From: Spironucleus salmonicida
Lineage: Eukaryota; Fornicata; Diplomonadida; Hexamitidae
Direction: 5' to 3'
NCBI GenBank assembly: GCA_000497125.2
Contig: CM035320.1
Coordinates: 70,001-134,000, forward strand
DNA: 64,000 nucleotides
Part shown: positions 18,934 to 63,127 of the stretch, one piece after another
Numbering within the stretch: the stretch's first letter is position 1
Layout: the number at the start of each line of letters is the position of its first letter
Notes under the pieces: generated by a model
Seen by the model: only the letters and a program-made list of their open reading frames with translations
Told to the model about the DNA's origin: nothing
The model's database searches: none
Program-made: the position numbers and the translations under genes

Positions 18934-19367
18934 GTATGGTATTTATTGAATATTTATTTGTTTTAAATATATACTTCTGATGATAACATATTTTTGTGTT
19001 TAAGTTTGTCTAACATGTAATAAAGTCTTGTTTTCTTAATAATATTCTAAATTAGAGTAGAAATAAGATAATACTTCTGAATTTGGTATTCCATAGTGAA
19101 TATCTTCAATTTATCTATTATATACTATAGTATATACTTTATACTCTATAGTAGGAGATATAATATAAAAGTTTATATTTAATAACTTGCAATAAGTTTT
19201 TCATACATACAACTTGTTAATAAAATTTAATAAATATATATTATTTGGATTAAAATTTATTACACAAGTATAAAAGCTGTAATATACTATTGACTTAAAT
19301 TATTCAGAATATTTTTATTTCTATAATATATGTATTATCTTCAAATAATATTTACAATATTTTTAGA
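18934..19367. other. Intergenic, AT-rich
   Basis: About 430 bp with a short TATACTATAGTATATA-like palindromic tract near 19120-19140. No gene recognised. Confidence 0.3.
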
Positions 19368-20939: not shown

Positions 20940-21809
20940 ATGGATACCGACAACACTTGCACAAACTCCGTTAACACATGTGACACGAACAATTTTTGCC
21001 CGGCAAATGGATCTAGTAAAGAGAAATGTAAGCCATGCATCGCAAACATGCTTCAAGGCAAGGGATGCACATGTGTTACCGGTACCACAGTCGTAAATTG
21101 CACACAGTGTCAGGACGGATCTTGCATAACATGCATTCCTGGGGCATATCTGCAGAATTCTAGATGCAATTTCTGCATGTAGGACTGCGGGAACTGCACG
21201 GCGGTAGATTTTTGCATTAAATGCAATGAGGGATTCGTATTCAATACCGTTTCTAAAACCTGCGTCAAGCAGGTTGTGCAGTCTTGCTCCACGAATTAAG
21301 ACTGCTAAAAAGTCGGTACCGGCTTCTGCGACCCTTCTAAGCATGTGTGTGTTGCATGTGCTGCTGGTTGCGATTTGTGCTCCTCAGCCACTTTTTGCAA
21401 TAAGTGTAAAGAAGCTGATTTTATGACAACAATTGAGGGGAAATGCACTAATAAATGTAACACAAACGTCAGTGGCAAATTTTGCAATAATGGCACGTAG
21501 ACTGATTGTGCAGAGGGCCTTACATCTGCTTGTTATTGTAGCGGATTTGTGAATTGTGCGTCATGTACTTCTGACAAAACCTCTTGTGAAACTTGCTTGC
21601 CTGGTGTAATAATGAATAGTGCTAAATAGTGCAATATTTGCGCAGACGGGTACGACAAAATAGGAGAAATGTGTTGGGCCAATTTTAATAGTTCTTAGAA
21701 TAAGATCGGCGGTGGAGCGATTGCGGGCATCGTTATCGCAGTTTTGGTCGTAGTTGGTGTTGTTGGTGGCGGTCTTGCCTTCTACTTTATCAAGAAGGCG
21801 AAGAAGTGA
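20940..21809 (+). CDS. Cysteine-rich membrane protein (CRMP, VSP-like), GC-richer copy
   Basis: 289 aa. Starts [24 protein letters not shown] units through about residue 250. The membrane helix begins [20 protein letters not shown] and the tail is short and basic (KKAKK). The DNA of its ectodomain is clearly more GC-rich than that of the neighbouring CRMPs, and Gln is often TAG or CAG. From position 21710 on, its 3' end (membrane helix, tail, downstream spacer) is identical to the same part of the next two genes, so it looks like the donor or recipient of that cassette. No signal peptide. Confidence 0.87.
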
Positions 21810-22885
21810 AACTTGATAATTTTGAATCCTTAAATTGATAAGGTACCATTTAATTTAAAATATTCTTCAGATGGATAAGTAAATATGGAAAATTATTACC
21901 AAGAAACATCAAAAACTCAATTCATTTTATGTGCTAATACCACTATTACTAAATTTATTATTTACGCGAATTTTAAGAAACTTCTAGAATATTATAATAT
22001 GTCATAATTCTTTAGAATCTAAAGTAAATCGAATCTTGAATACGTACGTTACCAATTATATTACCAATTATTGAAAACACTCGATTTTAATAACTAGCAA
22101 TATTAGGGAATAGATGGTTGTTATTTGTTAAAAATGGACGAAACTGGCATTTGCTCGATTGATAAAAAGACATGTAAAGCAGGAAATTTTTGCCCAGCTA
22201 CTGCAGAAAATAGTGTGAGTTGTATGCCTTGCTCTGATAAAATTCCATTTGGTCAAGGATGCTATTGCAAAGATAACACCTTAGAACCATATTGTCAAGA
22301 ATGCAAAGATGGAAAGTGTGTCAAGTGTGTAGCTCGAACATTCTTTGTGGGTAATGAGTGCAGGAGGTGTTCACGTGGATGCAGTGAATGTACAAATGGG
22401 CGAACCTGTCAAAAATGTTTAGAAAACAATATCCTCGACACTGTAAAAAATAAGTGCATATTAATTTGCTAAAACGATAAAGAATGTTAGGATATACATG
22501 AAGGTTATTGTGATAATGAAACAAACCGATGTGTTGCCTGTCCATAAAATTGTAGTCTTTGCTCGTAAAATAATTACTGTTTTTCTTGCGATTCAAATTG
22601 GGAAATAACTACTATTTTGGGAACTTGCATCCCAAAATGTTTTGTTATTGAGAATGGTTTTTATTGTAAGGACGGATTACCCGCACCCTGTGTATCAGGT
22701 CTCACATCAGAGTGTAAGTGTGGCAATAGTATGAATTGTAGTTCATGTAGTAGGAATCAGAATAACTGCGATAGTTGTTTGCCAAATTGGGAGTTAGATG
22801 GCTAAGGTAATTGCACAAACTGTGCAAAGGGTTATGAAAAAATAGGTCTTTTATGTGTACGGGACGAAAATTATATTAACACTAC
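21710..22885 (+). repeat. 1,176-bp tandem repeat, unit 1
   Basis: Unit 1 runs from the membrane-helix codons of the CRMP at 20940 through the spacer and the whole ectodomain of the next CRMP. Unit 2 (22886-24061) reads the same base for base where I compared, and both encode the same protein. The junction lies in the CGGTGGAGCGATTGCGGGCA helix-coding sequence, as expected for unequal crossing-over there. Confidence 0.9.
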
Positions 22886-22985
22886 CGGTGGAGCGATTGC
22901 GGGCATCGTTATCGCAGTTTTGGTCGTAGTTGGTGTTGTTGGTGGCGGTCTTGCCTTCTACTTTATCAAGAAGGCGAAGAAGTGA
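22134..22985 (+). CDS. Cysteine-rich membrane protein, tandem copy A
   Basis: 283 aa from [20 protein letters not shown] (an in-frame TTG three codons upstream is not needed). CXXC units include [27 protein letters not shown] and CASC-like pairs. Membrane helix and KKAKK tail identical to the gene at 20940. The predicted protein equals copy B at 23310. No signal peptide. Ectodomain is AT-rich, unlike its own GC-richer 3' cassette, so the gene looks like a chimera of an AT-rich ectodomain and a transferred TM end. Confidence 0.87.
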
Positions 22986-24061
22986 AACTTGATAATTTTG
23001 AATCCTTAAATTGATAAGGTACCATTTAATTTAAAATATTCTTCAGATGGATAAGTAAATATGGAAAATTATTACCAAGAAACATCAAAAACTCAATTCA
23101 TTTTATGTGCTAATACCACTATTACTAAATTTATTATTTACGCGAATTTTAAGAAACTTCTAGAATATTATAATATGTCATAATTCTTTAGAATCTAAAG
23201 TAAATCGAATCTTGAATACGTACGTTACCAATTATATTACCAATTATTGAAAACACTCGATTTTAATAACTAGCAATATTAGGGAATAGATGGTTGTTAT
23301 TTGTTAAAAATGGACGAAACTGGCATTTGCTCGATTGATAAAAAGACATGTAAAGCAGGAAATTTTTGCCCAGCTACTGCAGAAAATAGTGTGAGTTGTA
23401 TGCCTTGCTCTGATAAAATTCCATTTGGTCAAGGATGCTATTGCAAAGATAACACCTTAGAACCATATTGTCAAGAATGCAAAGATGGAAAGTGTGTCAA
23501 GTGTGTAGCTCGAACATTCTTTGTGGGTAATGAGTGCAGGAGGTGTTCACGTGGATGCAGTGAATGTACAAATGGGCGAACCTGTCAAAAATGTTTAGAA
23601 AACAATATCCTCGACACTGTAAAAAATAAGTGCATATTAATTTGCTAAAACGATAAAGAATGTTAGGATATACATGAAGGTTATTGTGATAATGAAACAA
23701 ACCGATGTGTTGCCTGTCCATAAAATTGTAGTCTTTGCTCGTAAAATAATTACTGTTTTTCTTGCGATTCAAATTGGGAAATAACTACTATTTTGGGAAC
23801 TTGCATCCCAAAATGTTTTGTTATTGAGAATGGTTTTTATTGTAAGGACGGATTACCCGCACCCTGTGTATCAGGTCTCACATCAGAGTGTAAGTGTGGC
23901 AATAGTATGAATTGTAGTTCATGTAGTAGGAATCAGAATAACTGCGATAGTTGTTTGCCAAATTGGGAGTTAGATGGCTAAGGTAATTGCACAAACTGTG
24001 CAAAGGGTTATGAAAAAATAGGTCTTTTATGTGTACGGGACGAAAATTATATTAACACTAC
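22886..24061 (+). repeat. 1,176-bp tandem repeat, unit 2
   Basis: Second full copy of the unit starting at 21710. I saw no difference from unit 1. An assembly duplication cannot be excluded from sequence alone. Confidence 0.88.
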
Positions 24062-24161
24062 CGGTGGAGCGATTGCGGGCATCGTTATCGCAGTTTTGGT
24101 CGTAGTTGGTGTTGTTGGTGGCGGTCTTGCCTTCTACTTTATCAAGAAGGCGAAGAAGTGA
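23310..24161 (+). CDS. Cysteine-rich membrane protein, tandem copy B
   Basis: 283 aa, predicted protein identical to copy A (offset exactly 1,176 bp). The same start MDETGIC, the same CXXC units, TM helix and KKAKK tail. Identity extends through the spacer, so the duplication is very recent or kept uniform by gene conversion. Under mutually exclusive expression as known for Giardia VSPs the two copies would be antigenically the same; expression mode here is unknown. Confidence 0.87.
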
Positions 24162-24441
24162 AACTTGATAATTTTGAATCCTTAAATTGATAAGGTACCA
24201 TTTAATTTAAAATATTCTTCAGATGGATAAGTAAATATGGAAAATTATTACCAAGAAACATCAAAAACTCAATTCATTTTATGTGCTAATACCACTATTA
24301 CTAAATTTATTATTTACGTGAATTTTAAGAAACTTCTAGAATATTATAATATGTCATAATTCTTTAGAATCTAAAGTAAATCGAATCTTGAATACGTACG
24401 TTACCAATTATATTACCAATTATTGAAAACACTCGATTTTA
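24062..24441 (+). repeat. Partial third repeat unit
   Basis: The TM cassette end and spacer repeat again downstream of copy B with one change seen (C to T at 24319), until the match ends near 24441. The following CRMP then diverges. Confidence 0.85.
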
Positions 24442-24484
24442 CTAACTGTGCATACCATGAAATATACATGTATGCTATTTTAAA

Positions 24485-25357
24485 ATGGATGAAACTGGCA
24501 TTTGCTCGATTGATAAAAAGACATGTAAAGCAGGAAATTTTTACCCAGCTACTGCAGCAAATAGTGTGAGTTGTATGCCTTGCTCTGATAAAATTCCATT
24601 TGGTCAAGGATGTTATTGCAAAGATAACACCTTAGAGCCATATTGTCAAGAATGCAAAGATGGAAATTGTGTCAAATGTGTAGCTAGAACATTTCTTTTT
24701 GTTGATGAATGCAGGACATGTTCGTATGGATGCAGTGAATGTACAAATGGGCGAACCTGTCAAAAATGTTTAGAAAACAATATCCTCGACACTGTAAAAA
24801 ATAAGTGCATATTAATTTGCTAAAACGATAAAGAATGTTAGGATATACATGAAGGTTATTGTGATAATGAAACAAACCGATGTGTTGCATGTAAAAGAAA
24901 TGGTAACCTTTGTTCGTCAAACAATGAGTGTTTTTCATGTGATACGAATATATTAATAACTACTATTTTAGGAACTTGCACTGCAAAATGTGCCAATATG
25001 GAGAATAATAATTATTGTAAGGATGGAGTTCCCACACCCTGTGTATCAGGTCTCACATCAGAATGTAAGTGTGGTTATAGTGTGAACTGTAGTTTATGTA
25101 CTAGGAATCAGAATAAATGCTATAGTTGTTTACCAAATTGGGAGTTAAATAGCTAAGGTAATTGCACAATCTGTGCAAAGGGTTATTAAAAAATAGGTCT
25201 TTTATGTCTAGGTAACGGAAGTAATTCTTATAATAAAATAGGAGGCGGGACTATTGCTGGCATTGTGATAGCCATTTTCGTAGTAGTTGGAGCAATTAGT
25301 GATGGTCTAGCTTTTTATTTCATTAAGAAGTCTAAAACAAATGGAATGACAGAATGA
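24485..25357 (+). CDS. Cysteine-rich membrane protein, diverged third copy
   Basis: 290 aa. The first 200 residues closely match copies A and B, with scattered changes (for example FYPATA for FCPATA, losing a Cys, and FLFVDECRTCSYG). Later parts diverge, and the membrane helix differs (GTIAGIVIAIFVVVGAISDG) with the tail KKSKTNGMTE. So it shares the ectodomain but not the TM cassette, the reverse of the situation at 20940. Such mosaics point to recombination between family members. No signal peptide. Confidence 0.86.
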
Positions 25358-35872: not shown

Positions 35873-38554
35873 ATGTCTCATAATATCTCAAAAGAGGAGA
35901 TCTATTCATTTACGCAGTATATTAACATTAACCTTAAGAAATCTAGTTAATGTCGTAAATTTCTCCCAATTAGCCCAGATTCAGACGCCCTTTTCGACGT
36001 ACTCTGGGACTCGAACGGCTTAATTCTGCAACAGCTCATACACATGGCTACGAAAGATCAGTCTTCACTAATTTCGTCATTTAGCACATTTAAGATCCCT
36101 GAAAAGCCAAACCCCTTCCAAACACTCCAAAATCTGAATTGCTGCATCGAGGGCGCGAAAAAAATTGGTTGCAAGATCATGGGGGTCTCTGGCGACGATT
36201 TTAAGGAGAAGAAGCAGTACCTCGTCCTCGCAGTGTTATGGTAGGTGATCCGCAGGTGCCTGGGCGTCAAAATCGGTGCAAAGTCAGCCATCAAGGACGA
36301 CGAAATCGAACCTGTCATAATCCAGTGGGCTAACGGTATTTTGGGCCAGTCACGCGAGCTTAAGGACTACGGTGCGCCTGAGGTCCTGAACGCGCTCATG
36401 CGCGAGGTCGCCAGGCAGAATTTGATCGAATTCGCTAGCGACGAAATGGACGAAACTGCCATGCTAAACCAGTGCTTTTTGATCGCAGATGAGCTCCAAA
36501 TCGAGCGATTTGCGCGTGTCGAGGACTTGAAAAATAGAAACGGAAAGATAGTTTTAGCGTTCCTCGCAGAGGTGTTTTCGTAGGTTATCAGTTAAGAAAT
36601 AGCGATTGGGCAGGACTCTGCAATTGCACAAATGAAGCGCATTTCTGTTGTTAAAAGCATCAAAAACGGGTTTTAAGAATCTGTCGTTTTTATGAGTTTC
36701 AAACAGGGCATGCTGTGGGATTAGAGTCGTGCGAGTGGGTTTTTAGATAGCACCGAGCTTTGCATTTTCATTTTAACCATTTTAGACGATCTGAAGATTC
36801 GAAATTCTGACGAATTCTAGAGTTTGTAATATAGTTTTTTGCTACCAAAATTAACAGAAAAAGAATAACTTTCATTAATGCTTTAGACAGTTAAGCTTTT
36901 GCGAGACTGTTTGGATTAGATTTTATTTTAAAATAAAGTGGATATAGAGCTTTTTAGAATTCTAGTTACCAGTCTGATGGTTTTAGTGTCTGATGAATCA
37001 AATAGAGTGGAACTACTAGGAATAAGCTTTGGGTCGACAATGAATAGATTATTAATGGTAAGCGGTAATTAGAAGCTTATAGCTCCAATATTTTTATTTG
37101 GAAACACTATGGATATGGAATCCAATACAGTTATTTATTTTGATATTTTCAAGAGTTTTTATGATCAATTAGATAAAAATATGTTGTATAAGCTTAATTT
37201 TACAGAATTTAATGCTATAATCTTTAGTCTATAGTAGATATAGCTCGTGGATTAAACTAGTTAAAAATTATTTTTAGATTATTCATTTGAAAACATGTAT
37301 AAAAATATTTCATAGTACACGATATAAGATTTATCCTTATTTTACAATACTTTGAAAAACTCATCATATGGGTTTGATGAAATGTAAAAAATATTAGAAT
37401 CATCTATTAAAAATGTTGTTTTAGTTTAAACTAAAGATTCCAGTCTAGGGTCATTATTAAAATTACAGAATATTAATTTTCTTGTTATTTTATTGGCGAA
37501 GTATCCTGAGTTGTCACTAAAGTATCTTTAAAGCTCAAATATTCATATAGAGGCGATTAAAGTTGTTAATAATATAAATTATGATAATTTGTAAGATTCT
37601 ACCTATTAGCGGGAGATATATTCATCTGCTTATTTACTAAATGCGGTTAGAAAAGCATTATAATTAAACTCTAACGATGTATTTTCTAATATAGATAAAT
37701 AACTTAGGTTTGTATAAGATAAATTTGAGGAATTATATGTTTATTTAGTAGAAAATTAGCTTGGGAATTAGTCTATACGTTCTACCGCTAGATATTTAGT
37801 TTAAGGATTGTTAGAAATAGACGATGTAATAATAAATAAATTTATGGAATATTTAGAAACTTCAGCAAAGTCGTCCTCATTTACAGCCTTCATTCAATCT
37901 ATGAAAGATATGGAAATTACAGCGTAATATATCAACAGTCAATAGCTTGTGAATACATTAAATTGGGTTTTCGCTGGCTTAGCTAAATTTTAAGATATAG
38001 AATTGGTTATGAAGTAGTCTTTATAAACATTAATTTCATTAAGTGTATATAGTCCATAGCTTATTATTACTTCTTTAGGGCTAACCGAAATTACTAATAC
38101 TCTTATTCCATGGATAAATGAATCTAACATATTAAGCTTATATCTTGTTCTAATTTAGACATTATCATCTTCACCAAATGCATCTTTACCAACATTTATA
38201 GTTAGCTTTAAGATTTTATAAAGAATACCCACTTAATTTTCTCATATTTTACCGCAGTATTATAAAACTTTATAATCCTTAGCTAATAGTTCGAAGACTG
38301 CCAAGTATTTTTAAAATTATTTGGGATTCTGGAATAACATTATCGAACATTTATCAAGCGGTATTATAGTTGCTAGAGCAGTATCTGCATGCATTCTAAA
38401 AGTAGTGGAAGCAGGATATATTTTGTTTGAGTAAGCATAATAAATAAACTTATTTGAAAAAATTGAATTGTATGGGAAAGGTTATCATGATGAAGAATTG
38501 AATAATAATATTAGTAAAATTATAGCATTTTACGTTTATTATACAAATGAGTGA
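35873..38554 (+). CDS. Fimbrin/plastin-type actin-binding domain fused to a long helical region
   Basis: 893 aa. Residues about 8-125 match the first calponin-homology (CH) domain of fimbrin: EEIYSFTQYININLKKSSQC, LQNLNCCIEGAKKIGC and KKQYLVLAVLWQVIR. Residues about 140-240 match the second CH domain (IIQWANGIL, a Glu/Asp-rich linker, NGKIVLAFLAEVF). Fimbrin would continue with two more CH domains; here about 640 residues of helical, HEAT/ARM-like sequence follow instead. No EF hands precede the CH pair. The CH part is GC-rich (about half), the rest AT-rich, so the gene may be a fusion. Likely binds actin, perhaps linking it to another structure. Confidence 0.8.
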
Positions 38555-48733: not shown

Positions 48734-50611
48734 TCATTAGTCGGAACCTATAGGCTGAAAAGCCTCTGCACTAACAATTCTTTGCACGGTGGGGGCTGTT
48801 ATAATATTTTCTATTACCTATTACCAAGGAAATACTAGTTACTTCCAACAGCTTCTTTCTTTTGGTTCTGACCAAACTTTTTTTGTTCTATCTAGCAAAT
48901 TTGCAACAGCTCTTGGAGTAGAAGGTGGTAATTTCATATCAGCAAATTCAGACTTAACTTCAGTTTGAATAAACTAAACCTCTTTTACAATATTAGTGAG
49001 ACCTGTAAATGAGAAGGGCTTGAAAAACTCATTATCTATAGAAGTTAAACATTCAAACAATGAAGTTCCTTAAATATGATCTGGATATACTCGAAAGCTA
49101 GATTTTGAATCAGATTCGAAAATATGGCAGTCTAAATCTATCTCATTGAGTCTAAATCCATTTTAATGATCTTTTTTAATCTAATAATAATCTCCTTTAT
49201 TAATTTCTTCAAACAATGCAGGATAAGTACAAAAATCAGTAAATTTACCCATAAATATACAGTCAGGTTTTTATACAACAAATCCACATTATTAGAAAAA
49301 TAAATACTCAAGATAATTTTACCTACTTTCATGATATTATGCTATATATTAATATATTATCTCTTTTTTCTCAGCATCACCAAACCTATAATATAGCTAA
49401 GCCATTAACTTTTAACTGTAACTAAATTTATTACATAGAAATTCAATTCTTTCTTTAGTGAATATTTATTCTAGTATTTATATATTACTGCTTCTAACTA
49501 CTTAAAAACACTTCTCCCAGAACTCACAATTTGAGATCCCCCAACATTACCTAACAATTTCCATACTACTTTAGAATTTACCATGGGCAAGAAACCAACC
49601 TAATAAATAAAGAATAGTTGTTTCACGTTATTGATCAATCTTTTCAATTTAGTCACCTTCAACAATTGTTTTTTCGTCACTAAAAGTATTAAAAACTTCT
49701 CCTGCCATATCGCTTAGAACAATTTCAGCAACGTCACTTCTAAGACTATTTGTTAAAATCTCGCTAAGAACAATTTTTAGTAACTAACTCTCCTTTACCA
49801 TATTTCCTCGCTAAATAACACCAACTGCAATTTCACGCTTGGAACTTTCGTTCAAATTTGTAACCTCAATTTCGAACATTTTTTCGAGACTAGTTCTAGT
49901 AATAATTTATGCCAAATTCCTAATTGGCGTGAACTAAAATGATGCACAACGTAATGCTATATCAGCAGTGAGAATTTCGTTAAAATTTGTACGATATAGC
50001 GAAATTTCAAACTGATATTAAAATCTAGAAGCAATATAACGTTGTGGATATATCTCAGATTTAGCTTATGTTAGTTACTATTCTAAAGCAAAAATTTATT
50101 GAAATATATGAAGTTTTTGGTTCTTATTTGCAGTTTGCAACTAAGCATGTAATGTCTCATATTGACTTGTATATGAATTTGACTCTTCATCAATTTCGAG
50201 AGTTTGATCTCTTATATCAGTAGTGATTGGGCTTGAAAATGGAACAAGTTAATGTACCCTTAAAACAGCTTATTTAGCCTAATCAATTGAATCTTTGACA
50301 CGTGGTGATGCAGCAAATAGAAGAATTGATAGGTAACGCTCCCAGAGCGGTTTAGAAGCTGTAGATACACCATGCCGAGAAATTGCTTGGTTTAACTGAT
50401 TTTAAAATATTAAAAGTGGTTGGAAGAGAGGGTCTTCCTTCTAAAGAGTGTAGTTTGTAGTGGATAGAATTTAACCAGACACTGCACGGTCAAAATCGCG
50501 AGCCAATTCTTCGGGGAGTTCTTTTTGCATCTAAAATTATAGCATATTGAAGTAGTCGAGAACTTCAGATATAGCATCTGGATTGAATGATGGGAACTGC
50601 TTATTCGACAT
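48734..50611 (-). CDS. Large helical protein, 625 aa, uncharacterised
   Basis: Starts MSNKQFPSFNPDAISEVLDY. Predicted almost wholly helical with short coiled-coil stretches (QYETLHAQLQTANKNQKL). No membrane segment. The middle (LYLLGWFLAHGKFQSSMEIV) looks like helical hairpin repeats. The C-terminal end covers a GC-rich island near 48740-48800 that could be mistaken for an RNA gene. I recognise no family; trafficking or flagellar complexes contain proteins of this kind. Divergent from the ARM-like gene, 110 bp between starts. Confidence 0.72.
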
Positions 50612-50721
50612 TTGTGGAATGGTAAACTTAATATTTATATATTTATATAATATTCGAATCATTATAGACGAAAATGGAATGTTATAGAAGATTAAGAATT
50701 GGAAAGAATTTGAATAGAAAA

Positions 50722-51681
50722 ATGTATAAATAGTCATATAGCATATTCAATGTTAAAAATTTAGATATAACATAGTAAATTAATTAATTATTATTATTTA
50801 CTAAAATACTACAAGGTGATAATTTCTTAGATAAACTACTTATAATTGAACATCTCAACACAGAAACAACATCATATTCAATAGAAAATTAGCTTATTTT
50901 CTGTAAAGTGCTATTTGCCCTAACTGTATAATCCGATTTGTCATATACATCAGTAAAAATAACTAAATAAGCAATATAATATTTCAAATTTAGCCCTGAT
51001 ACTACTATATAGTATATAGGAAATATTATTTCAGATGATGCTTCATTTATATTAGAGTTTGAACAGGAAATAGATGAATATTTAAGAAAATTCGATCCAG
51101 ATCTTTAATATTTTTCTATTTATACATGGTTTGCATAAATATTTGCCCGTGTGACCCAAAACAATGTTCTCTAATATCAAATTGAAAAAATTTATTAGGG
51201 ATTGATGTAAAATATTCAATTAGCTGATGATGGGGAGATGTTAAATAATTTAACGTTTTTCTTTATTTATGTTACAAGAGGAAAACAATCGTACAATATA
51301 GATTATTAATTTTTTAAGACCATGACTACTCTATCTGCAAAAGCTAGTATTGAAGAATCGTTGCTCAAGAAGTCGTTCGACAATAATCCAGAATTTGCTT
51401 AAGAATATTTGAACACAGAAGAAAATAAGCCTTATTTAACACTTTGTATTCAATAAGATAATATTGATTATATATATAATCTACTCGATTCTAATTAATA
51501 CTATGATAACTATGATGCTATTCAGTGTATTTTAGCTAATAAATTATAAATAAATGAACTTTATTAAGGAAAATTAATGTTATTTCTTAATACTATAAAA
51601 TTAGAAGACGAAGAGCTTTATTAGGAGTATAAGTAGTAACTAGACTACCTACCTTTAATAAAATTTTTACCTGATATTTGA
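50722..51681 (+). CDS. Helical (ARM-like) protein, 319 aa
   Basis: Starts MYKQSYSIFNVKNLDITQQ after an A-run. Helical hairpin repeats with a hint of armadillo type: ILQGDNFLDKLLIIEHL, NQLIFCKVLFALTVQ, EMLNNLTFFFIYVTRGKQ. The last resembles importin-alpha ARM repeats, but the conserved NLS-binding Trp/Asn array is not clear. The C-terminus is acidic (KLEDEELYQEYKQQ). Role unknown; nuclear import adaptor is one possibility. It lies 65 bp upstream of the Dus gene on the same strand. Confidence 0.6.
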
Positions 51682-51746
51682 TGTGAATGTATACAAAATA
51701 ATATAAATATAAATATAATATTGATAACATAACTACTCAAAATATA

Positions 51747-52952
51747 ATGAAGTGCCTTGCTCCTATGGTTGAAGGGTCAGAATATCCTTTTAGACAGCTG
51801 GTATCACATTTCGGAGTAACACATTTCTGGAGCCCAATGTATAACGTAACCATGCTTAAAAGTAATGAAAAATAAATTTAATAAATTATTAGAACAATTA
51901 AGTAGGAGAATAGAAATATCATAGTTTAGTTAGCTGGAAATAATCCAAATGACTTTGAAGAAATTATTGCCAAGCTGAAGGTGGTAAAGAATATAGAATA
52001 TTTTGATTTAAATTTAGGTTGTGCTTAGGTATGTGCATAAAGAGGGAATTTCGGTTCATATCTTATGGAAGAACGGGATATAATTTAAAAAATACTATAA
52101 GTTTATTCTAATAATCAAGTATAAATTTCAGTTAAAACTCGAATTTTTAGTAGTATAGATAAAACTAAAGATTTTATCGAATTTTTAATAAAAAATAACG
52201 TAACAATGATCACCTTGCATGGAAGACTTAGTAAATTAAAATTAGGATGCTTTTCTGGTGATGCATTAATGTAAGATACGGTAACGCTGTTAAAGGATAT
52301 GTAAAAAAAGTATGTCTACGTCAAATTTATATATAATGGTGGGATTTATTCATATAATCAAGTGGAACATTTAAATTAAATGGGAATTGGAGCTATGAGT
52401 GCATAAATTATATTATAAAATCCAATGCTTATGACTCCTTAGGAAAGTTTTCCTATATTAGATTAATATTGGTATGATAAATTTGAGCAGTTTAATCTAG
52501 ACTAAAATATACTATAAGACATAAAGTATAACGAAATCCAAAGTTTTGACATTACAAATTTATATCTGTCTGTATCAAATGATAAATAAAATCTTGTTAT
52601 AAAAAAACAGGTAGTTCCCATGTTATTTGATACAAAATAGTAACGTATCAATAGAATTAAAGCATGTTACTTATTCTGCCATTATTGTGAATATGCATCG
52701 CAAAATAACTTAGAAGTTACTATTAGTTGTGTCTTATCTATCTCTATGTCATTATTTGGGCGAGATTTTCTTAAATATCAAACAGATTTACGAGATCAAA
52801 TTGTCTAAAAGGACTATTCACATATTACAGACCACGAGAGAATTATGAAAAGATGTTAAATAATTAAAACAATTTGTTAAGAAGCTGTTAAAAGGTTAAT
52901 GGACAATAAAGGGTTTTAAAAACATAATTATTAAAAAATAGATGAAAAGTGA
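51747..52952 (+). CDS. tRNA-dihydrouridine synthase (Dus1-like)
   Basis: 401 aa. TIM-barrel Dus signatures: LAPMVEGSEYPFRQLVSHFG at the N-terminus (FMN-binding strand), FDLNLGCAQVCAQRGNFGSY (family GC motif; the Pro that usually follows is Ala here), ISVKTRIF and MITLHGRL. The C-terminal part is Dus1-like helical, extended and basic. The enzyme reduces uridine to dihydrouridine in the tRNA D-loop using FMN and NADPH. Ends 3 bp before the convergent TTLL gene. Confidence 0.87.
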
Positions 52953-52955
52953 CTG

Positions 52956-54896
52956 TCAATTATCTTATAAAATAATTTATTTGCAGGTTACTTCAATATT
53001 AGTAACAAGTTTACTTTCCTAAACGAACTTTATATCTTTCCATATTAATTTAAAAGATGATGTTCCTTAGGGGAAGTAATACATCATATTTTCAGGATGT
53101 GGAAATAATTCTTATTAAGCTTTTAATAATTTCCCACAATAACCATCACAAATTATCGAAACATAACCCATTGTCATGTCCTTGATGAGGGCGGTAACGA
53201 GATCGGTCGAGTGCTCCATGGTAGGGGAAGTGTTGACCTCTAGACACCACACCTGTAAATCTGCATCTAAAATAAAATCGTAACCGAACATTTCAAAGCC
53301 ATTTTGCTCTCCAAACCGGAAGCGGGCTGCATGGATGGTTGCCAGGACGATACGTGCCATGTCGTACATAATGCGGTCTCCGAGCGAGTCGAATTTTTTT
53401 GCAGAATCATATTTAGATGTCAATAGTTCAGGATGTGATGTAAAGTCGTAAATACCAGCCAGATACTCACACATCTAAGAAAAATGCCACATGTTGCCAT
53501 CGATACTAGCACCAAATGACTCTGCATGCCGTTGGACGGAATTATTGGATAGATGTATAAACGGATTATTTAGATCAGTATTTGAATATTTTGCTGAGCA
53601 GAAGCGCAAGTATGGGCGAGTCCACTACCATATTACCAGAGGGTTTACAGAAGAAACTAACACCCACTACCGGATATCAAACTTGTAGCCATGTATCAAT
53701 AACGGTCGTTCAACGTACTTCTGAATAATATATTTGTCATCCTTGTCGATTAGATCCTCATCTGGAAGGGCCTCTAATTAGTCACAATCTAACGTCAAAA
53801 GCTATCGCAGGTTATCGCTAGCAAAAATACCTCTCCCCCGTGACTTACCGCTTGGCTTGCAGATCCATATATTATTGAAATCGTTCAGCATCGATTATTG
53901 AAAATTTTTTTAAAAGTTAGCAATTAAAAATGTATATTCTCTTTTAATTATGTCTTTTGGTAAAATAATTATTCTACTTAAATATATCTCCTAATTTTCT
54001 ATTTAATTGATAGATAAATCAAGATTCTTATCATAATATGATGGAAACTGAGTCATAGGATAATCCTTAGGTATATTTATAATAACTACTTAAGTAAAAT
54101 CTTTATCACATGTATCAAAATAATCTGATTAAATAGGAAAATCATCAATTAACCTAGGATTTAACCAAGCTCGCAAAATAATAAAGGAACATTAAACCTA
54201 GTAAGTGAAACTTTCTATATTAAATTCTAATTCATTGCAGTTACGAAGAATTTTAATAGCTTCTAGTAATGTATATTAGCGTAAAAACTCAAAACTCTCA
54301 TCATTTTTATCAAAAATCATTGTTTTTTGTAATGGTTATACCTTAAAACTTATTGGAAAAAACTATTACCAATCTATATCCACCTCAGCATTTCTTAATG
54401 TTTTTTGTAATAAACTTTTAACTGTTAACTAGTTATTTGATTTTATATGGTTTGCAAACTAAAATTATGTTAGTAATTAGAAATTTATGTCTATTGCTCT
54501 AACACAAAATCTTAAATTTACATTCATATCATTTATATTTAATGTAAATAAAAATCCACGTCTTTGTAGTTCATATTTAATATCTATAAATTTTTCATCA
54601 ATATAAGCGATATTTTATACCTAAGTCATGAAATTTTCACGAAACTCTTACACAGAATTCTATTTGGCTTATTTTAGCAACTAAATAAATGGAATATTTT
54701 ATGTTTCATATAATAATTTATCACATTACGATTTCATTTTTCTTTCAAATAGGCGAATAGCTTCCATTGAAAAATATCCTAATAATTATATGGCAATTTC
54801 ATTATTTTATGGAATCATAAAAATATCCTATTTGAAAATACGATTTTATTTTGTTGGACTTTAAAGTGTTGCTGATAGCTACGGAAATTTAATCAT
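52956..54896 (-). CDS. TTLL3-type tubulin glycylase, copy A
   Basis: 646 aa. Tubulin tyrosine ligase-like ATP-grasp core at about residues 333-586: [15 protein letters not shown] (ATP-binding), [32 protein letters not shown] and [20 protein letters not shown] with the metal-binding EVN. Order and details (NPLVIW, NNSVQ) match TTLL3/8 monoglycylases, which add glycine to axonemal tubulin; diplomonad tubulin is known to be glycylated. The N-terminal 330 residues and the C-terminal tail differ from copy B, but the core DNA is identical over 763 bp in inverted orientation. The core is GC-rich, the rest AT-rich. Confidence 0.88.
53137..53899 (-). repeat. 763-bp inverted repeat, left arm (TTLL core)
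   Basis: Reverse complement of 56397-57159; no difference seen. It begins at the AATAATCGATG sequence and ends in GATGGTTATTG. Arms are separated by 2,497 bp holding the two divergent TTLL 5' halves and their shared promoter. Confidence 0.9.
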
Positions 54897-55027
54897 TTTA
54901 ATATGTGGTAATTTAATCAATTACTTATTTTAATGCACTAAATCTACTGTTTTATTTAATGTATTTTTTTAGGTCATTACAAATTTTTGTTATAAATTTT
55001 TTATATCTAATAGTATATATTTTTAAA

Positions 55028-57358
55028 ATGAGCATAACACGGATAAAATCATAGGTTAATTTACCTATGATTAAAATAGCTTAGCCTAAGAAAAATTTAC
55101 ATAAATAACCAAAAAGTTGTCGAAGCGAATCTGCATATCCAGTTACATAATTTTCCTCAAATTTTATACCAACTTTTTAAGGATTTCATTATTATCCTCG
55201 TGATACTTCAAAAATAACCTAAAATAAAGATAGAAACCTTTTAGTGACTTAAAAATCCTTTTCTCGTACCTAAAAGCAAAAATTTTAAAATATGCCTGAA
55301 AGTCTAGATTATCGGCAATATGCATAAAATTTTTTTATGATCCCATTAAAAGGATTGAACTTTATTTATCCAAAAGAAGTCTTATTCTTAACAAAGAAAT
55401 TTGAGAGGAAAATAAAAATATCAACCTAATAAATACTTTAACTAAAAGCATTAGAAAATAACTTATATATTTAATTCAAAACAGAAGCTAAAGAAACTTC
55501 TTCATTTTTTACATAATTTTTCAATAAAGTTGTGCCAAATATAGCTATTTTTAATGGAGCCTTTCCAACTTTCCGCGAGGAGTTTGCTAAGCGGGGTTTT
55601 ATAATAAATCCAGATTTAGAATCTGAGTGTTTCAATGTAAAATTCGTAGTTAAAATTGCGGATGCAAAATGGGATAATTTATATCCATTTTAGTATATTA
55701 ACCATATTCAAGGAATGATCTACTTATCTATTAAAGGAATGATTATAGAAACTTTAAAAACAGAGGTTGATATTGAAGCAACGGACTATTTTCCTCTGGC
55801 ATATCGAGTACTTACAGATGCAGGGGGAAAAGGTAGAATTTAACCAGGTAATAATGATGATACGTTAAATTTTTTTGATGATTATATAAATTTGGAGGCA
55901 TGTAAGAAAGTGAAAAGATTTATTGAAATAATTTGCGATTAGTAAATTGTAAAGTAGTAAAAAGAATGGAATGAATATGTTTAAGAAAAAGAGAAAACAA
56001 TCATTTAGGAATATAATGAGGAAAATATTGAAAATAAGCTGGATATAATTAAATATGATTTTTTTAATATAGCTGAAAATTCTGAATAGTAAAAGCAGTT
56101 TTGGATTTCATAAAAATAAATTTTGGAAGCAATGCATATTTTAAGATATTATTTACAAAATCGAATTATTGACAATTTTCCAGTTTAATGTGATATAATT
56201 GATAATATAACTGAAGGGGAAATTATATAATTAATTCCTAATTATCCTTTATAATACCCAATTACGTATACTAAACATGAATACATAGTAACGTCAGGAA
56301 AAGGATTAAAGTATCTAGATAAACTTTCACTCAGTTCATTATAGTTGATATTTTTTGAATGTGAATTTCTATTACAGTAATTTAAAAGAAATTCGAAATA
56401 ATCGATGCTGAACGATTTCAATAATATATGGATCTGCAAGCCAAGCGGTAAGTCACGGGGGAGAGGTATTTTTGCTAGCGATAACCTGCGATAGCTTTTG
56501 ACGTTAGATTGTGACTAATTAGAGGCCCTTCCAGATGAGGATCTAATCGACAAGGATGACAAATATATTATTCAGAAGTACGTTGAACGACCGTTATTGA
56601 TACATGGCTACAAGTTTGATATCCGGTAGTGGGTGTTAGTTTCTTCTGTAAACCCTCTGGTAATATGGTAGTGGACTCGCCCATACTTGCGCTTCTGCTC
56701 AGCAAAATATTCAAATACTGATCTAAATAATCCGTTTATACATCTATCCAATAATTCCGTCCAACGGCATGCAGAGTCATTTGGTGCTAGTATCGATGGC
56801 AACATGTGGCATTTTTCTTAGATGTGTGAGTATCTGGCTGGTATTTACGACTTTACATCACATCCTGAACTATTGACATCTAAATATGATTCTGCAAAAA
56901 AATTCGACTCGCTCGGAGACCGCATTATGTACGACATGGCACGTATCGTCCTGGCAACCATCCATGCAGCCCGCTTCCGGTTTGGAGAGCAAAATGGCTT
57001 TGAAATGTTCGGTTACGATTTTATTTTAGATGCAGATTTACAGGTGTGGTGTCTAGAGGTCAACACTTCCCCTACCATGGAGCACTCGACCGATCTCGTT
57101 ACCGCCCTCATCAAGGACATGACAATGGGTTATGTTTCGATAATTTGTGATGGTTATTGCGGCTTATTGGTTTAAACTAATGATTTTTAAATGTTTCCAA
57201 AAATTTTAAATGGATAAGAACAATTTCCACAAGGATTAAACAGCTGGGTATTAATTTGGAAAGATGATATTAAATAATAAGAAGAATTTTTATTACCTGG
57301 TTTAGAAGTAAAAGGCGAGTAAATCAAGCTTCCAAAAATAGTTCCATGTAAACAGTGA
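55028..57358 (+). CDS. TTLL3-type tubulin glycylase, copy B
   Basis: 776 aa. Same catalytic core as copy A at about residues 457-710 ([44 protein letters not shown]). The N-terminal 456 residues differ: they contain a [15 protein letters not shown] segment typical of TTLL3 N-termini and an acidic coiled stretch. The C-terminal 66 residues ([20 protein letters not shown] and on) are related in design to copy A but not identical. The start is 131 bp from the divergent start of copy A. The identical core between diverged ends points to gene conversion. Confidence 0.88.
56397..57159 (+). repeat. 763-bp inverted repeat, right arm (TTLL core)
   Basis: Matches 53137-53899 in reverse complement. The GC content changes abruptly at both ends of the arm. 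Recombination between arms would invert the 54-56.4 kb segment and swap the 5' halves of the two genes. Confidence 0.9.
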
Positions 57359-57395
57359 TTGTATTATTATCTAATTATATATATTTAATTATTAA

Positions 57396-57854
57396 ATGTC
57401 TTTCGAACTTTTCACACCTGCAAAGCTGAAAAATAAATCAAATTTATCATTATCATTTGAGTAACATTTATTCTAATCCAAAATCATAATGTTTATAGTA
57501 TAAAATCAGCTTTATTAAAAGATATTTTGTTGTGTTTATCTTAGTTCAATGTTATTATCAATATATCAACTATTAAATGATACACCAATGTAAGTGATGA
57601 TATTAATAGCATCAACCATATTATTAGATTGCACTATGGTAATAAATACATATATTAGAATTAACAACTAAGTTATTATTCTAATGTTCTAGATTCTTTG
57701 TTAATTCATTTCTGCAATAATACGTAATTTTATCATTCATTTTTACAATTCCACTATTAATATATTCTATTTTAAAATTGGATCTTATGTTTCTAGGATT
57801 GCCTATCTGTTAATTTTCATAAAATTTATTGTTTGGATTTAGGAAACAAATTGA
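57396..57854 (+). CDS. Small multipass membrane protein
   Basis: 152 aa. Starts MSFELFTPAKLKNKSNLSLS. Four likely membrane helices: IFCCVYLSSMLLSIYQLL, PMQVMILIASTILLDCTMVI, VIILMFQILCQFISAIIRNF and IAYLLIFIKFIVWI. Few charged residues outside the N-terminus, so a chance frame is possible, but the helices are evenly spaced and the start context fits. No family recognised. It is 37 bp after TTLL copy B. Confidence 0.5.
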
Positions 57855-57994
57855 CCTTAACAATGAATAATTTATAATTTTAAATATTTTTATTTTATTA
57901 TTAAAAATAATTATATTGATGATCCTTACAATTTATATTTATTATAATAGTTCCAATATATATAATAACAAAGTGTCTTTATATTCCGCTAAAA

Positions 57995-58975
57995 ATGACT
58001 AGTACACTAAATCAACTTCAGTCTTAGTTTTTAGATAAAATTAGCAGAACTAATTTCATAATAAATGATGTTAATCAAACTATTACAGAATAATAAGATA
58101 TAAAAGATGATTGCTTACTGTAAATTTAGAACTAAAAATAGAAAAATAATTAATATATTGACACTTTGCTATTACAAGAATAAAAAGATAATATATTATC
58201 TGTATAAAAGTTAGAAGCATCATAAGACGAGGCAGAGAGGTAACTTACAAATACAGTAGATATTGTAAATTAAAACTTTAATAATAAAACAGACTATATT
58301 CATTACTTAGAATTACAACTGTAAAAACATTTTAGGACTGAATCTGAATTAAGAATGCAGTTAGCATTGAAAAATAAATCTGTGTAAGCATTAGTAAATG
58401 ATTCTATTACGTAGTATGAAGAAAAAATTGATACCTTAGTTATTGATAATGAGTTGCTTAAAAAATAAGTATAACATTTATCTGATTAAGTAAAACATTT
58501 AAGTACTTATAATTAAACTTTAGTAAAGGAAAAATAGGAACTAGGGTTTAGCCTTAAAACAGCTGAGCACCATATAATAACATCATCATAAGTAGTACAA
58601 GATTAATCACAATATTTTAATTAATCTATTGTCTAATAAAAAGATGCAACTGAAAAAGAGTTTGGTATGTTTTCTAAAATATATGTTGAGCTAAAGGAAG
58701 AAAAATAAGGACTTGAAAAATCTTTATCTTCAAAAGATTAAATGATCGATGTTTTAAGTTCCCAATTTAAGAATATGAAGGAGTAGAACTCCGCATATAA
58801 GCAATATAATAAACATTTAGAAAGAGAATTTGAGGAGATTAAGAGTAGCTAAGTTTTAGCCAATTAAGAAATAGAAATCTTGAAATCTGGTAGTGGTAAT
58901 GAAATGATATCAAAAATTAATGCTCTTGAAGCAACAATTGCGGAATTACAAATATCAACATCATAATGTCAATGA
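57995..58975 (+). CDS. Coiled-coil protein, 326 aa
   Basis: Starts MTSTLNQLQSQFLDKISRTN. Coiled coil over most of its length (DYIHYLELQLQKHFRTESEL, LEREFEEIKSSQVLANQEIE, INALEATIAELQ). Gln very frequent, nearly all TAA/TAG. No other domain. Same strand as the methyltransferase gene that follows after 48 bp. Structural role likely, not shown. Confidence 0.75.
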
Positions 58976-59023
58976 AATTATTTTACATTATAGTATATTA
59001 TACACTATTTATCAATATTAATA

Positions 59024-59602
59024 ATGTAACCACCAAAAATAAATTCGATCCATACTTGGTAGGAATTTTACAGTGAAATAAAGACAAATAAAGATTGGTA
59101 TCTAAAATTACCATAATTGTAAGAATTGATACAATAACTGGCTGAATCTTAAAGTGAAATTCTTGATATTGGATGTGGGTCGTCAAATTTAGCCAATGAG
59201 CTTAATGAATTAGGATATAAGAATGTCACATGTATAGATTACTTAGAATCAGTGATAAATTAAATGCAACCCTAGGTTTCTGGTAGCTAATATATTTTAA
59301 TGGATGCTAAAGATTTATAGTTTCCGAATAATATATTTGATGTTGCAATCACCAAGGGAACATTAGATTTCATGCAAGAAGATATTACGGAAGTATGTTA
59401 AATTATTACGGAAATTCATCGGACTTTGAAGCTAAATGGTGCATGTATAATTGTAAGCTAGATATTACCAGAAATTATACGAAAATCTTTAAATATCGTT
59501 CAGTGGAATCATATTTATGAGAGTAATTTTGAAGTTAATAATGGATGCATTTGTAATGCATAAGCAAGAGCTGAAGTATCGGTTTTCGTGGCTTTTAAGT
59601 GA
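59024..59602 (+). CDS. SAM-dependent methyltransferase (METTL13/EEF1A-KMT4-like)
   Basis: 192 aa. Motif I LDIGCGSSNLANELNELGY (about residues 55-73), the acidic end of strand 2 CIDYLESVI, and FDVAITKGTLDFM, which fits the DKGTLDA-type motif of the METTL13/EEF1AKMT4 group. N-terminal WQEFYSEIKTNKDWYL matches the conserved W-FY segment of that group. These enzymes methylate lysines, often on elongation factor 1A. The protein is short, lacking C-terminal extensions. Stop in AGTGA context. Confidence 0.85.
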
Positions 59603-59746
59603 AATATTCATGTTTTATAATAAAATAAATATATTGGCAAATCAATAAATTTAAATATGAATTATATAATAACATGAAAATATTTTCAATACATACTGTA
59701 AATTGTCCTCAATTTACAATCAATTTCATTCAACCACTTCCCTGTC

Positions 59747-60127
59747 ATGTCAAAGATTTTTGTACAGTACGGTCGTGTCGTTATGGTTGACGCTGGTGAA
59801 TTCAAGAGCAAAGTAGCTATGATCACTGATATCGTTGATTACAAGACTATATAGATTGAAGGTCCCGAGGTTAAGAGACATATCTGCCCTATCAAGAGAG
59901 TAGTCCTCACTGAATTCGTCCACTCTACTGAGACACCCGTCACTTCTGCCGACTGCAAGAAGGCTTTCAATGCTGAAAAATTCGTTGAAAAGTTCGCCGC
60001 AACCCAGAAAGGTAAGGAAGTCGCTTTAGAGAACAAGTATAACGCTCTCTCTGAAGTTGAAAAGATCAAACTTAACATCATGAAGAAACAGCGTGCTAGA
60101 ATGATCGCCAAGGTTGCCTGCAAGTGA
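59747..60127 (+). CDS. RPL14: Ribosomal protein eL14
   Basis: 126 aa. N-terminal KOW/SH3-like barrel (FVQYGRVVMVDAGEFKSKVA, ITDIVDYKTIQIEG) and basic C-terminal helix (EVEKIKLNIMKKQRARMIAK) match eL14 of the large subunit. Strong codon bias towards C-ending codons in contrast to neighbours, as expected for a highly expressed gene; one internal TAG still encodes Gln (THR-ILE-GLN at the conserved V-x-I-Q-G position), which supports the alternative code. The upstream region CAACCACTTCCCTGTC lacks the A-run seen before other starts. Confidence 0.95.
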
Positions 60128-60273
60128 TTTACTAATCTTGAGCAATGAGTTTTACATTTTATTTTTATGATTTTTTCACTTATTAGCTGTACTACGAAAA
60201 ATCCCACTACTTAAATCGCCATATTTTTATTGTATTAGAACCCCCAGACGCACTACAAACCACAAAACCCCAC

Positions 60274-62232
60274 TCACTGAATTAAGCACGCATCCAAATC
60301 CTCGTCGTGCCCCTCCTCGACTCCCTGCTCCTGGCTACAGGCGATCATTCGTTCGATATTTTCCTTTCCTTTGACGGCCCCGTAGCGCACTCTCGCCTCG
60401 ATAAACGTGTTACCCATGTCCTCCTCGCCCTCATGCTTCTGAAGTTCGTCCCAGGCGTTTTCCATCATATTCTAATTGTCTGAGCTGTTGAAAGTGAGCT
60501 CGCTAGCAGCCGAAACTGCATACTTCGTGCTCAGATTCTATCTCTGCTGGCTCAAAACGCTACCATTTTCGCCCTGCATTGTCACTGCCAAAGTGCGGTT
60601 TGCTACCTCATAGCGCTATCTCAATAGCTACGTCCGCTGCTCAATTTTGTTCTACTGGCGCGCCCATCGCGCCTTCCACGCGAGAGAATTGATCTCGAAA
60701 AGACCACCAGCGACTACTAGGTTATCAGAAAACTAGGCAGCCAGGTCGTATATTTCAAGCTTGGAAACTAGCTCAGCGAGGCGTTTGAAAGCTGGAATCT
60801 TCATGCAATAAATATCGAGATTTTGAGAGGTCTGCGTGGCAGTTTTGAGCAGCGATAATGACTGCAGGACCTGCTAATACGTGCAGAGCATTGTGACCGG
60901 GAGCTCAGGATGGGTGAGCTCGGTGAGCGTTAGTTCGTCGCTTTTCTGATCTTTTCTGATCAATTAGTCGATTTCTTGTAAGAAATCTAATTATACACCG
61001 GACTCCTTTTGTTGAGTAAAGACTTGGCAAGCCAATTAAATCATGTTCATAATCGCAAAAATACGACCGCAATAGACGAATTCTGTGAGCTCTGATAGGT
61101 CACCAACGTTATCACCAAGAAAAACAGCAGTGTTCTCAAGTTCGTCCTAATTCGTTTTTTATATAGTTTTACGATCTTCTAGAAGCGCAAATTCGTTTAA
61201 ATGGACATTCCATTTCGTTGGAATTGACTATTTATCCAAAAGGAGTTTAAATAGTTTTGGGATTTGACTAATTTCGAGGTTTGCAAAAGCTAGATTGTCA
61301 TCTTTTTTGTCTTTATTTAAGTTTACATGATCGTCTTGGAGAATCTACAAATATTCGTTTTTATCTGTTGGGATAAAATGGTCCTAAAATTTACCGCCGA
61401 GAAGAACTTCAATACACTCGCTGCATTTTAAAAATTTCTAGAAAACGACATAACTAGCTTTGTAAAGATTAAACTGATTTAAACTATAGCTGAGACGTAA
61501 GAAACAACCATTTAACAGCAATAAGAATCTTAATTACTAAATTTGACTTAAATCAACATATTCTGCATCAGCTTCATAAACTACGTCCTTATCCATCAAT
61601 TAACATATTTATTCACACTTAAAGCTGCCAATTTCTTTACTTATAAATTCAAATAATACATTTCTTGCTTATAATGCAAAGTGAATAACTACAGGAACAA
61701 ATATTTACTTGTCAAGCTCAATCTTTTTAATCTTGGCAATAGCAGCTACTAAAGGATCCTCACGTTCAATGGTTCTTGTGAACTCTGCCGAATCAATTAA
61801 TTAGAGAATATCGATTGATTTCGTTTATTAAAGTTCTGTTAAAATAGCAAATGGCATAACTAATGGGAGCATTTTAACATGAGAGCGGAGTTTATGGTTA
61901 TCTAAAAACAAGTCTGAGACTTCTGATAGGGATTGAAATTTGTCAAAAAGCTAATTTTATAAACCTGCATTATCCGATGTTTCAAGGAGAATTTAAAGGC
62001 GTTGAAGAGTTTTAATGGGTAATGAAAGTGGATTATCAAATGCAAACTCTGGGAGGAAAAGAGGGGCTTCTGGACCAGCTGTAGCAATGATATCCTCAAA
62101 AGTTTGTGGTTAATTTGATCCTAAAGGCTGTGTCATATGAGTAAGGCGGAATAGATCTATGAATGCATTAATTGCACCAGATCTGATGGTTGAAAGACAA
62201 AGTTTCTAAAGATTAGAATAGTTGTCCGCCAT
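60274..62232 (-). CDS. Large helical protein, 652 aa, uncharacterised
   Basis: Starts MADNYSNLQKLCLSTIRSGA. Helical throughout, with ARM/HEAT-like pairs in the first 450 residues and coiled coil near residues 540-580 (RQQNKIEQRTQLLRQRYEVA). The C-terminus is acidic (EEGHDEDLDACLIQ). The 3' third of the gene (60274-60960) is GC-rich and the 5' two thirds AT-rich. No family recognised. Stop in AGTGA context. Convergent with eL14, 146 bp between stops. Confidence 0.72.
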
Positions 62233-63127
62233 TTTTGAAGTGAAAATAATATAAGTGCTAATATAATATTATATATTTGCATTTAGATTTAATTATGAAA
62301 ATTATTCTTTCATCTTATACTTTACTTCACTCTATTGTTGTTGTACTCAAAATTAATAATAATGTTAACAATAGGTTGAAAACAGTATTACTAAGGGAGT
62401 AAGAATACTGGTAAGCCTATTGAATAAGGAATATAATTTAGAAGTTTCTAGTCGACTATAATAATAATTGATAATACAAATAGATATTAAAATATTGGAT
62501 ATATTTTATTAAATTAAGCTAGAGATATCATTAGTAATACAAGCAAAGAAAAAATATAATTACTTCATTAAATATTTAAAACATACTTAGAGTTATTTAT
62601 AGCAAAGGACATAAATATTATATATTGTTAGAATATATTGTATATTAAACTATATTGTATTTACTTATAATGTAACCGAATTGCTATATTTCTAAGATTT
62701 TTGTAAGCTCTTTATTTTATTATGGCTAAAATATTTACTATTACAAGCTATTAGATTAAATAATATATTACATCCTACATTAAATTAACAATCGTTTATT
62801 GAATATAATTTCATATTGTTTCAACTATCTGAACAACAATACTTTTCTTTGCAACATTAACTCATACTAGTATACTACTACAGTTTGATGATTATAATTT
62901 ATCCTGAAATTGTAGATAATCTAGTACCAGTTTAGTATAAAATTATCATGATTGGAATCAGTATAGATACTAAAATACTAAACATAAGCCTTGATCAATA
63001 AAACTTAACAACTAAATCTATAAAATAAAAATACCTACTATTCAACATATCAAATATTAGTCTAACCAGTTAAAACTCTACCTATTTTTTCATATATTTA
63101 GTAGTGCAACCAGTAATCATAAAACGC
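62233..63127. other. Intergenic, AT-rich
   Basis: About 900 bp. Short open frames (for example from 62298 and 62670, 40-75 codons) look like chance. No repeat or RNA recognised. Confidence 0.35.

Follow-up and report, generated by a model that had tools for sequence, protein, structure and literature searches.

Identical inverted catalytic cores in two diverged TTLL3-type genes of Spironucleus salmonicida: probable gene conversion with a raised G+C content

The analysed DNA is a stretch of 64,000 nucleotides of Spironucleus salmonicida (contig CM035320.1, here C5; C5:70001–134000), called the window below; positions given without a contig refer to it. It carries two divergently transcribed genes, A and B, for homologues of TTLL3-type tubulin glycylases. 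The catalytic cores of the two genes are identical inverted copies of 763 bp, and the G+C content steps up at the ends of the copies. We consider it likely that A and B are old paralogues, with long-running gene conversion between the palindrome arms and GC-biased repair. Judged from the sequence, conversion between the two arms is very probable, and GC bias is probably the cause of the composition step. Conversion as the process, its bias and its continuing action are what we infer; as a consequence, one shared catalytic core would lie beneath two different N-domains.

Two diverged glycylase homologues with identical cores

Gene A (52956..55451, minus strand) is an open reading frame (ORF) of 831 aa and gene B (54959..57358, plus strand) one of 799 aa, and both stay open only with genetic code 6 (TAA/TAG = Q). 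The left arm of the palindrome (53137..53899, minus strand, 763 bp) is the catalytic core of gene A, with a G+C content of 0.421 and a G+C content at third codon positions (GC3) of 0.458. The right arm (56397..57159, plus strand, 763 bp, inverted) is the catalytic core of gene B. The reverse complement of 53137–53899 equals 56397–57159 at 763 of 763 positions, and the match extends 0 bp past either end. The spacer between the arms (53900..56396, 2497 bp, G+C 0.24) contains the diverged N-terminal parts of the two genes together with the stretch that separates their starts. Outside the arms lie the diverged C-terminal tails of gene A (52956..53136, minus strand, 59 aa, GC3 0.20) and gene B (57160..57358, plus strand, 65 aa, GC3 0.18). 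The G+C content of the whole window is 30%. The genome searched comprised 14,471,397 bases in 37 contigs, and the whole-genome DNA search, which finds close copies only and skips very common words, placed the arm sequence at two places, the two arms of this pair. A chance origin of the shared core is excluded, because 763 identical bases within genes so diverged require a copying process.

The PF03133 TTL profile matched gene A with an E-value of 4.7e-57 and gene B with 8.2e-58. A first-pass annotation of this DNA had described two divergent TTLL3-type genes with identical inverted cores of 763 bp; the ORFs and the profile matches confirm the first point, and the base-by-base comparison above bears out the second. 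The best solved chain for gene B was 5vlq_A (2e-37, labelled LOC100158544 protein), which we take to be Xenopus TTLL3, ahead of the best TTL (9e-23) and of TTLL6 (2e-19). The names of its relatives (best 120 of 317) were largely tubulin glycylase, TTLL3, TTLL3/8 and TTLL8, and no polyglutamylase stood among these printed names, many of which are shortened. Gene B thus appears to group with the glycylases more closely than with TTL or the polyglutamylases. The motifs [14 protein letters not shown] and LEVNTSPT were found in both proteins and are presumably ATP-grasp motifs with a catalytic role. By these signs A and B are ordinary members of a known enzyme family and predicted glycylases. A literature search on TTLL3 and glycylation in Giardia found nothing to the point, judged by title and abstract.

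Outside the core, A and B differ strongly, as the first-pass annotation had also stated. The N-terminal parts are 23.8% identical (492 aligned columns) and the C-terminal tails 43.8% (48 columns); once trimmed, the two N-domains share 25.7% identity (94 bits), about as little as the N-domain of B shares with the relative P0003 (26.6%, 97 bits), and that of A reached 23.0% (67 bits) against P0003. The shared core was 56% identical to P0003 over 166 aligned columns and reached 42.5% against P0004 over 247; these two are metagenomic proteins of unproven orthology to A and B. In the core alone, A and B agree better with each other than with these relatives. The gene pair therefore looks old, with the core alone kept alike.

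As drawn, the two ORFs overlap by 493 bp (54959–55451). The real starts probably lie further in, since conserved coding begins near 54821 in gene A and near 55334 in gene B. The public model P0001 of gene B starts at 55337. The public protein P0002 (454 aa, gene A) starts at 54320, inside the conserved region, and this start looks too late because homology to gene B and P0003 reaches upstream to about 54821.

The first-pass annotation had further proposed that recombination between the arms can invert the 2.5-kb middle and exchange N-terminal halves between C-terminal tails, with varying targeting regions as a possible switch for axonemal tubulin modification. The geometry of this proposal holds: identical inverted in-frame arms permit the flip, and both products would stay open. 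The predicted flip would exchange only the last 59 and 65 residues and leave N-domains and cores unchanged. The exchanged tails align with each other (44% identical) and with the tails of P0003 and P0004, and therefore little would change. Nothing in the assembly sequence shows the flipped orientation, and a human Y palindrome underwent three inversions against 146 conversion events (PMC3723533; this and the papers cited below by PMC number were available in part unless stated otherwise). We regard an invertible switch that alters tubulin modification as highly improbable. A switch of targeting in particular is unlikely, as the tails are homologous and the N-domains would stay on the same core sequence.

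Composition steps and further short-range palindromes

The core has G or C at 116 of 253 third codon positions (0.458), whereas outside it the proportions are 116/578 in gene A and 103/546 in gene B (about 0.19–0.20). Two change-points of GC3 were fitted in each gene without knowledge of the repeat. The fit gave nt 1557–2283 in gene A (repeat 1552–2315; gain 31.0 log units) and nt 1434–2169 in gene B (repeat 1438–2201; gain 33.7 log units), so that the fitted points lie 1–11 codons off the repeat ends; since the core is shared, only the flanks are independent between the two fits. An insertion of foreign G+C-rich DNA was rejected for this pair, as the protein homology between A and B crosses both core ends.

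PF03133 had at least 13 matches in the genome, two of which are the genes described here. The others form nine loci when L013/L015 are taken as one gene and L009/L014, in the two arms of one palindrome on contig C1, are counted once. The GC3 of the domain was 0.17–0.25 at seven of these nine (L004, L007, L008, L010, L011, L012 and L013/L015). It was 0.60 at L003 and 0.58 at L009, the palindrome-linked gene on C1, with 0.79 in the short piece L014.

The surroundings were compared in a C5 block (C5:10001–234000, 224 kb), with 176 mostly non-overlapping ORFs picked by length alone. ORFs of at least 180 codons were ranked by the log-likelihood gain of their internal block of elevated GC3, which 107 yielded. 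The four genes in the two short-range palindromes of the C5 block ranked 1 (91.6), 2 (66.5), 4 (33.7) and 6 (31.0). Rank 3 was a calponin-homology ORF (50.5), rank 5 an ORF crossing a simple repeat of 1% G+C (33.0), and the next value was 12.9. By whole-ORF GC3, the genes of the palindrome at C5:202004 were highest (0.78 and 0.75), and the PA28 gene, present in a single copy, came next (0.54).

Codon choice driven by expression was rejected as the cause of the core GC3, with one gene as reference. This was the EF-2 gene (C5:177055–179577, named from its sequence), which has a GC3 of 0.35 and uses T-ending codons at 279 of 421 sites in the families compared. GC-ending codons making up no more than 3% of their family in EF-2 were classed as avoided (GAG, at 17%, was included). 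They made up 18/480 in EF-2, 41/312 in the TTLL flanks and 36/123 in the core (Fisher test, p = 1.4e-4 for core against flanks and p = 7e-15 for core against EF-2); the list was built from EF-2 and so favours a low EF-2 value, from which the contrast of core and flanks is free. The codons gained in the core are thus largely ones that EF-2 avoids. The same codons made up 53/185 in the arm at C5:209417 and 98/125 where the C1 TTLL gene lies inside the arm, next to 3589/22953 in the background of the C5 block and 108/577 in an IleRS-like gene. The T-ending codons preferred by EF-2 took much the same share of the core (28/113) as of the flanks (66/257).

Self-comparison of the C5 block and of a block on C1 (C1:733001–775000, 42 kb, picked for a TTLL hit), 266 kb in total, found five short-range palindromes. 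The TTLL pair (C5 123137/126397) has arms of 763 bp with 0 mismatches and a G+C content of 0.42. The second palindrome on C5 (202004/209417) has arms of 1099 bp with 1 mismatch and a G+C content of 0.59. The three on C1 are 750034/755961 (3751 bp, 0 mismatches, G+C 0.69), 760578/767312 (1677 bp, 2 mismatches, G+C 0.58) and 734394/737508 (710 bp, 2 mismatches, G+C 0.48). The arms of the four palindromes other than the TTLL pair are 99.7–100% alike. The spacers measure 2.2–6.3 kb and have a G+C content of 0.22–0.35, against 0.42–0.69 in the arms. Comparing the 100 bp inside with the 100 bp outside each arm edge, 18 of 20 edges showed a step of at least 0.15 and none a negative one; of 20,000 positions drawn at random from the C5 block, 2.6% reached a step of at least 0.15 in a given direction. 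The arms of every palindrome except C1 734394/737508 were searched for genome-wide, which found two copies each, and for C5:202004 also a 70% paralogue on contig C6. With two copies each, an origin of the searched arms as a mobile element or dispersed repeat is unsupported.

In the largest palindrome (C1:750034–753784 / 755961–759711; L017 and L018, also L009 and L014), arms with a G+C content of 0.69 are bordered by DNA of about 25%. The inner edge of one arm falls inside a TTLL gene, of which the other arm holds only the C-terminal piece; downstream of the domain the GC3 is 0.98. The genes at C5:201869–203242 and 209346–210662 and at C6:754561–755418 (L036) form one protein family, of which two members share the palindrome. 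The family looks membrane-bound, and no Pfam match was found in the two of its three members that were scanned.

A contrasting case is the long inverted duplication C5:136102–147075 / 166336–176291 (L020, L021, L023 and L024). Its copies are 97.9–99.4% identical, with a G+C content of 0.24–0.29 and a spacer of 19–34 kb, and no steps of the above size lead into its arms. This lack of steps fits either a young age or the distance between the copies. The same region contains a simple repeat of 1% G+C at C5:139159–139585.

An artefact of assembly or polishing might explain the identity, with an arm duplicated by the assembler or both arms forced alike by short reads. The S. salmonicida assembly was Illumina-polished (PMC9509377); such reads could be misplaced in a 763-bp repeat, and a few differences could thereby have been erased. 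Each arm, however, passes in frame into N- and C-terminal parts of its own gene that are diverged but homologous, and the reported read N50 of 14.6 kb (PMC9509377) exceeds the length of the 4.0-kb unit. Nor would an artefact produce a G+C step. The in-frame diverged ends and the composition steps at the edges reject a palindromic assembly error as the whole explanation, and an artefact of either kind is very improbable.

Gene conversion, GC bias and the alternatives

In the explanation that we prefer, A and B would be old, divergent TTLL3-type paralogues whose cores form a 763-bp palindrome interrupted by a 2.5-kb spacer. DNA damage in one arm would be mended with the other as template, so frequently that the two stay identical. 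The flanks would have drifted too far to pair, giving the tract its sharp ends. Mismatch repair favouring G or C would slowly make the tract G+C-rich, and the rest would stay near the base level of the A+T-rich genome. The first-pass annotation had named gene conversion as one way to keep the arms alike, and this part is well supported by the old paralogues, the identical core with its sharp ends, the four similar palindromes and the G+C steps at most of the edges.

The core could also have been copied between the genes by one recent conversion or duplication, with no need for a long history. The absence of differences between the arms is also expected from such an event. The donor gene, however, should then lack a composition step barring coincidence, yet both genes step, and the pattern is repeated at the four other palindromes. 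If the core started at the level of the flanks, about 68 of its 253 third positions have become G or C, identically in the two copies; a single event leaves this excess in need of another cause, and the joint changes therefore favour a long shared history. We consider a single recent event rather unlikely.

Conversion may also have acted without GC bias. The core would then have been G+C-rich from the start, such stretches would convert more readily, and the A+T-rich flanks would drift apart. G+C-rich blocks without a partner do exist. A review of Drosophila prefers this causal order, as unconverted members were not lower in G+C (PMC3924832), and here the paralogue on C6 of the C5:202004 arm is such a case, being unconverted and G+C-rich. 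Against it, a G+C-rich starting core is unexpected when seven of the nine other TTL loci have a low domain GC3, and the change-points fitted without knowledge of the repeat fall close to the repeat ends. Conversion without bias is unlikely in our view, though somewhat less so than the single event. The probabilities of these explanations overlap, as the explanation without bias also includes conversion, and they are not meant to sum to one.

Several observations weigh against biased conversion between old paralogues. For four coding blocks that are rich in G+C and use the same codons, no repeat partner was found in the assembly. These are the TTLL gene L003 (GC3 0.59–0.60), the paralogue on C6 that is 70% identical to the C5:202004 arm (GC3 0.63), the N-terminal block of the calponin-homology ORF (35873–36897, GC3 0.59, with about 0.23 in the later part) and the PA28 gene (GC3 0.54). 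Partners had been predicted for the calponin-homology and PA28 blocks, and both predictions failed in the whole-genome search for close copies, which could miss diverged or collapsed partners. The unpaired blocks possibly had partners that were since lost; as they stand, they count against GC bias as the sole cause. The unpaired family member on C6, nearly as G+C-rich as the arms, also fits the view that G+C-rich DNA favours conversion. The C1 TTLL gene is G+C-rich past the arm, with a GC3 of 0.52 in its spacer part, and two of the 20 edges are almost stepless (0.04 and 0.05). The 20 edges are not independent, since the arms are copies that share their inside sequence, and three of the five palindromes come from the C1 block picked for its TTLL hit. 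The age of the pair may also be less than it appears: lower scores of A than of B against P0003 and P0004 suggest that gene A may have evolved more rapidly, in which case the divergence would overstate that age.

A broader form of the explanation would extend biased conversion beyond the TTLL pair. Many short-range palindromes in this genome would be homogenised by strongly GC-biased, non-meiotic conversion, and most G+C-rich islands, those now in single copy among them, would be footprints of present or lost palindromes. The TTLL pair would then show the process at work within two reading frames. We put this forward tentatively and hold it to be more doubtful than probable. To our knowledge, S. 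salmonicida has no well-established sexual cycle.

Comparison with other systems and neighbouring features

Homogenised palindromic paralogues with a raised G+C content are a known kind of structure. The Drosophila pairs Hsp70Aa/Ab, Hsp70Ba/Bb and Amy-p/Amy-d are likewise linked mirror-image paralogues under ectopic conversion (PMC3924832). They differ in that whole paralogues are alike, whereas here an internal core is shared by proteins about 25% identical elsewhere. The GC bias of ectopic conversion in the fly was called unproven (PMC3924832). The mammalian pairs BMP8A/B, DDX19A/B and TUBG1/2 show mosaic concerted evolution and are likewise two-copy pairs with concerted and diverged parts (PMC2720389). 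Their concerted introns are raised in G+C, and a raised GC3 was taken as evidence, with no significance for rodent Bmp8a/b. Unlike the TTLL pair, these genes bear introns, and only BMP8A/B is inverted, with copies about 235 kb apart (PMC2720389).

The palindromes of the primate X and Y chromosomes, for which GC-biased conversion is reported, likewise have arms more than 99% identical, and the X arms are richer in G+C than their flanks (PMC8981503, PMC3723533). In human X arms the difference is 46% against 41% G+C (PMC8981503); here it is 42–69% against 22–35% in the spacers, with arms of 0.7–3.8 kb in a compact protist genome. The nucleomorph of Lotharella oceanica likewise has an A+T-rich genome with homogenised copies of raised G+C, which were called consistent with GC-biased conversion (PMC4035089). 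Those copies lie in sub-telomeric and multicopy regions, and the available text of that paper does not describe local palindromes of divergent genes with edges inside the genes.

The chromosome-scale assembly of S. salmonicida comprises 14.7 Mb, with 284 kb of gaps, in 42 scaffolds, and its duplicated regions (at least 2 kb long and at least 95% alike) average 44.7% G+C against 30.7% elsewhere (PMC9509377). Gene conversion was suggested there in one sentence for families of surface proteins. The available text of that paper names neither palindromes nor edge steps nor GC bias, and arms of 763 bp fall below its size limit. In the main text of the 2014 genome paper (PMC3916229), the terms "gene conversion", "palindrom" and "inverted repeat" are absent. 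In the literature sampled, we found no report of diplomonad gene palindromes with composition steps at the arm edges. The TTLL pair looks like a small and clear example of a copying process that is present elsewhere in the genome.

If this explanation is true, single genes of a compact protist genome would contain sharp boundaries between DNA with and without conversion, at which the strength of GC bias in gene conversion could be measured. The high G+C content of S. salmonicida duplications, which the available text of PMC9509377 leaves unexplained, would then have a cause as well. Measures of codon usage and divergence could mislead for such genes.

A Pfam scan of seven window ORFs at 48734–62313 found TTL and ATP-grasp domains on the TTLL pair and Dus and DHO_dh on one neighbouring ORF; the other four had no match, and a recombinase that might serve an invertible element was not among the domains matched in these seven. 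Elsewhere in the window, 21695–24778 is a tandem array with a period of about 1176 bp, in which stretches of 300 bp are 93–100% alike across three copies. A fourth relative of this array, at 19362, is 60% alike.

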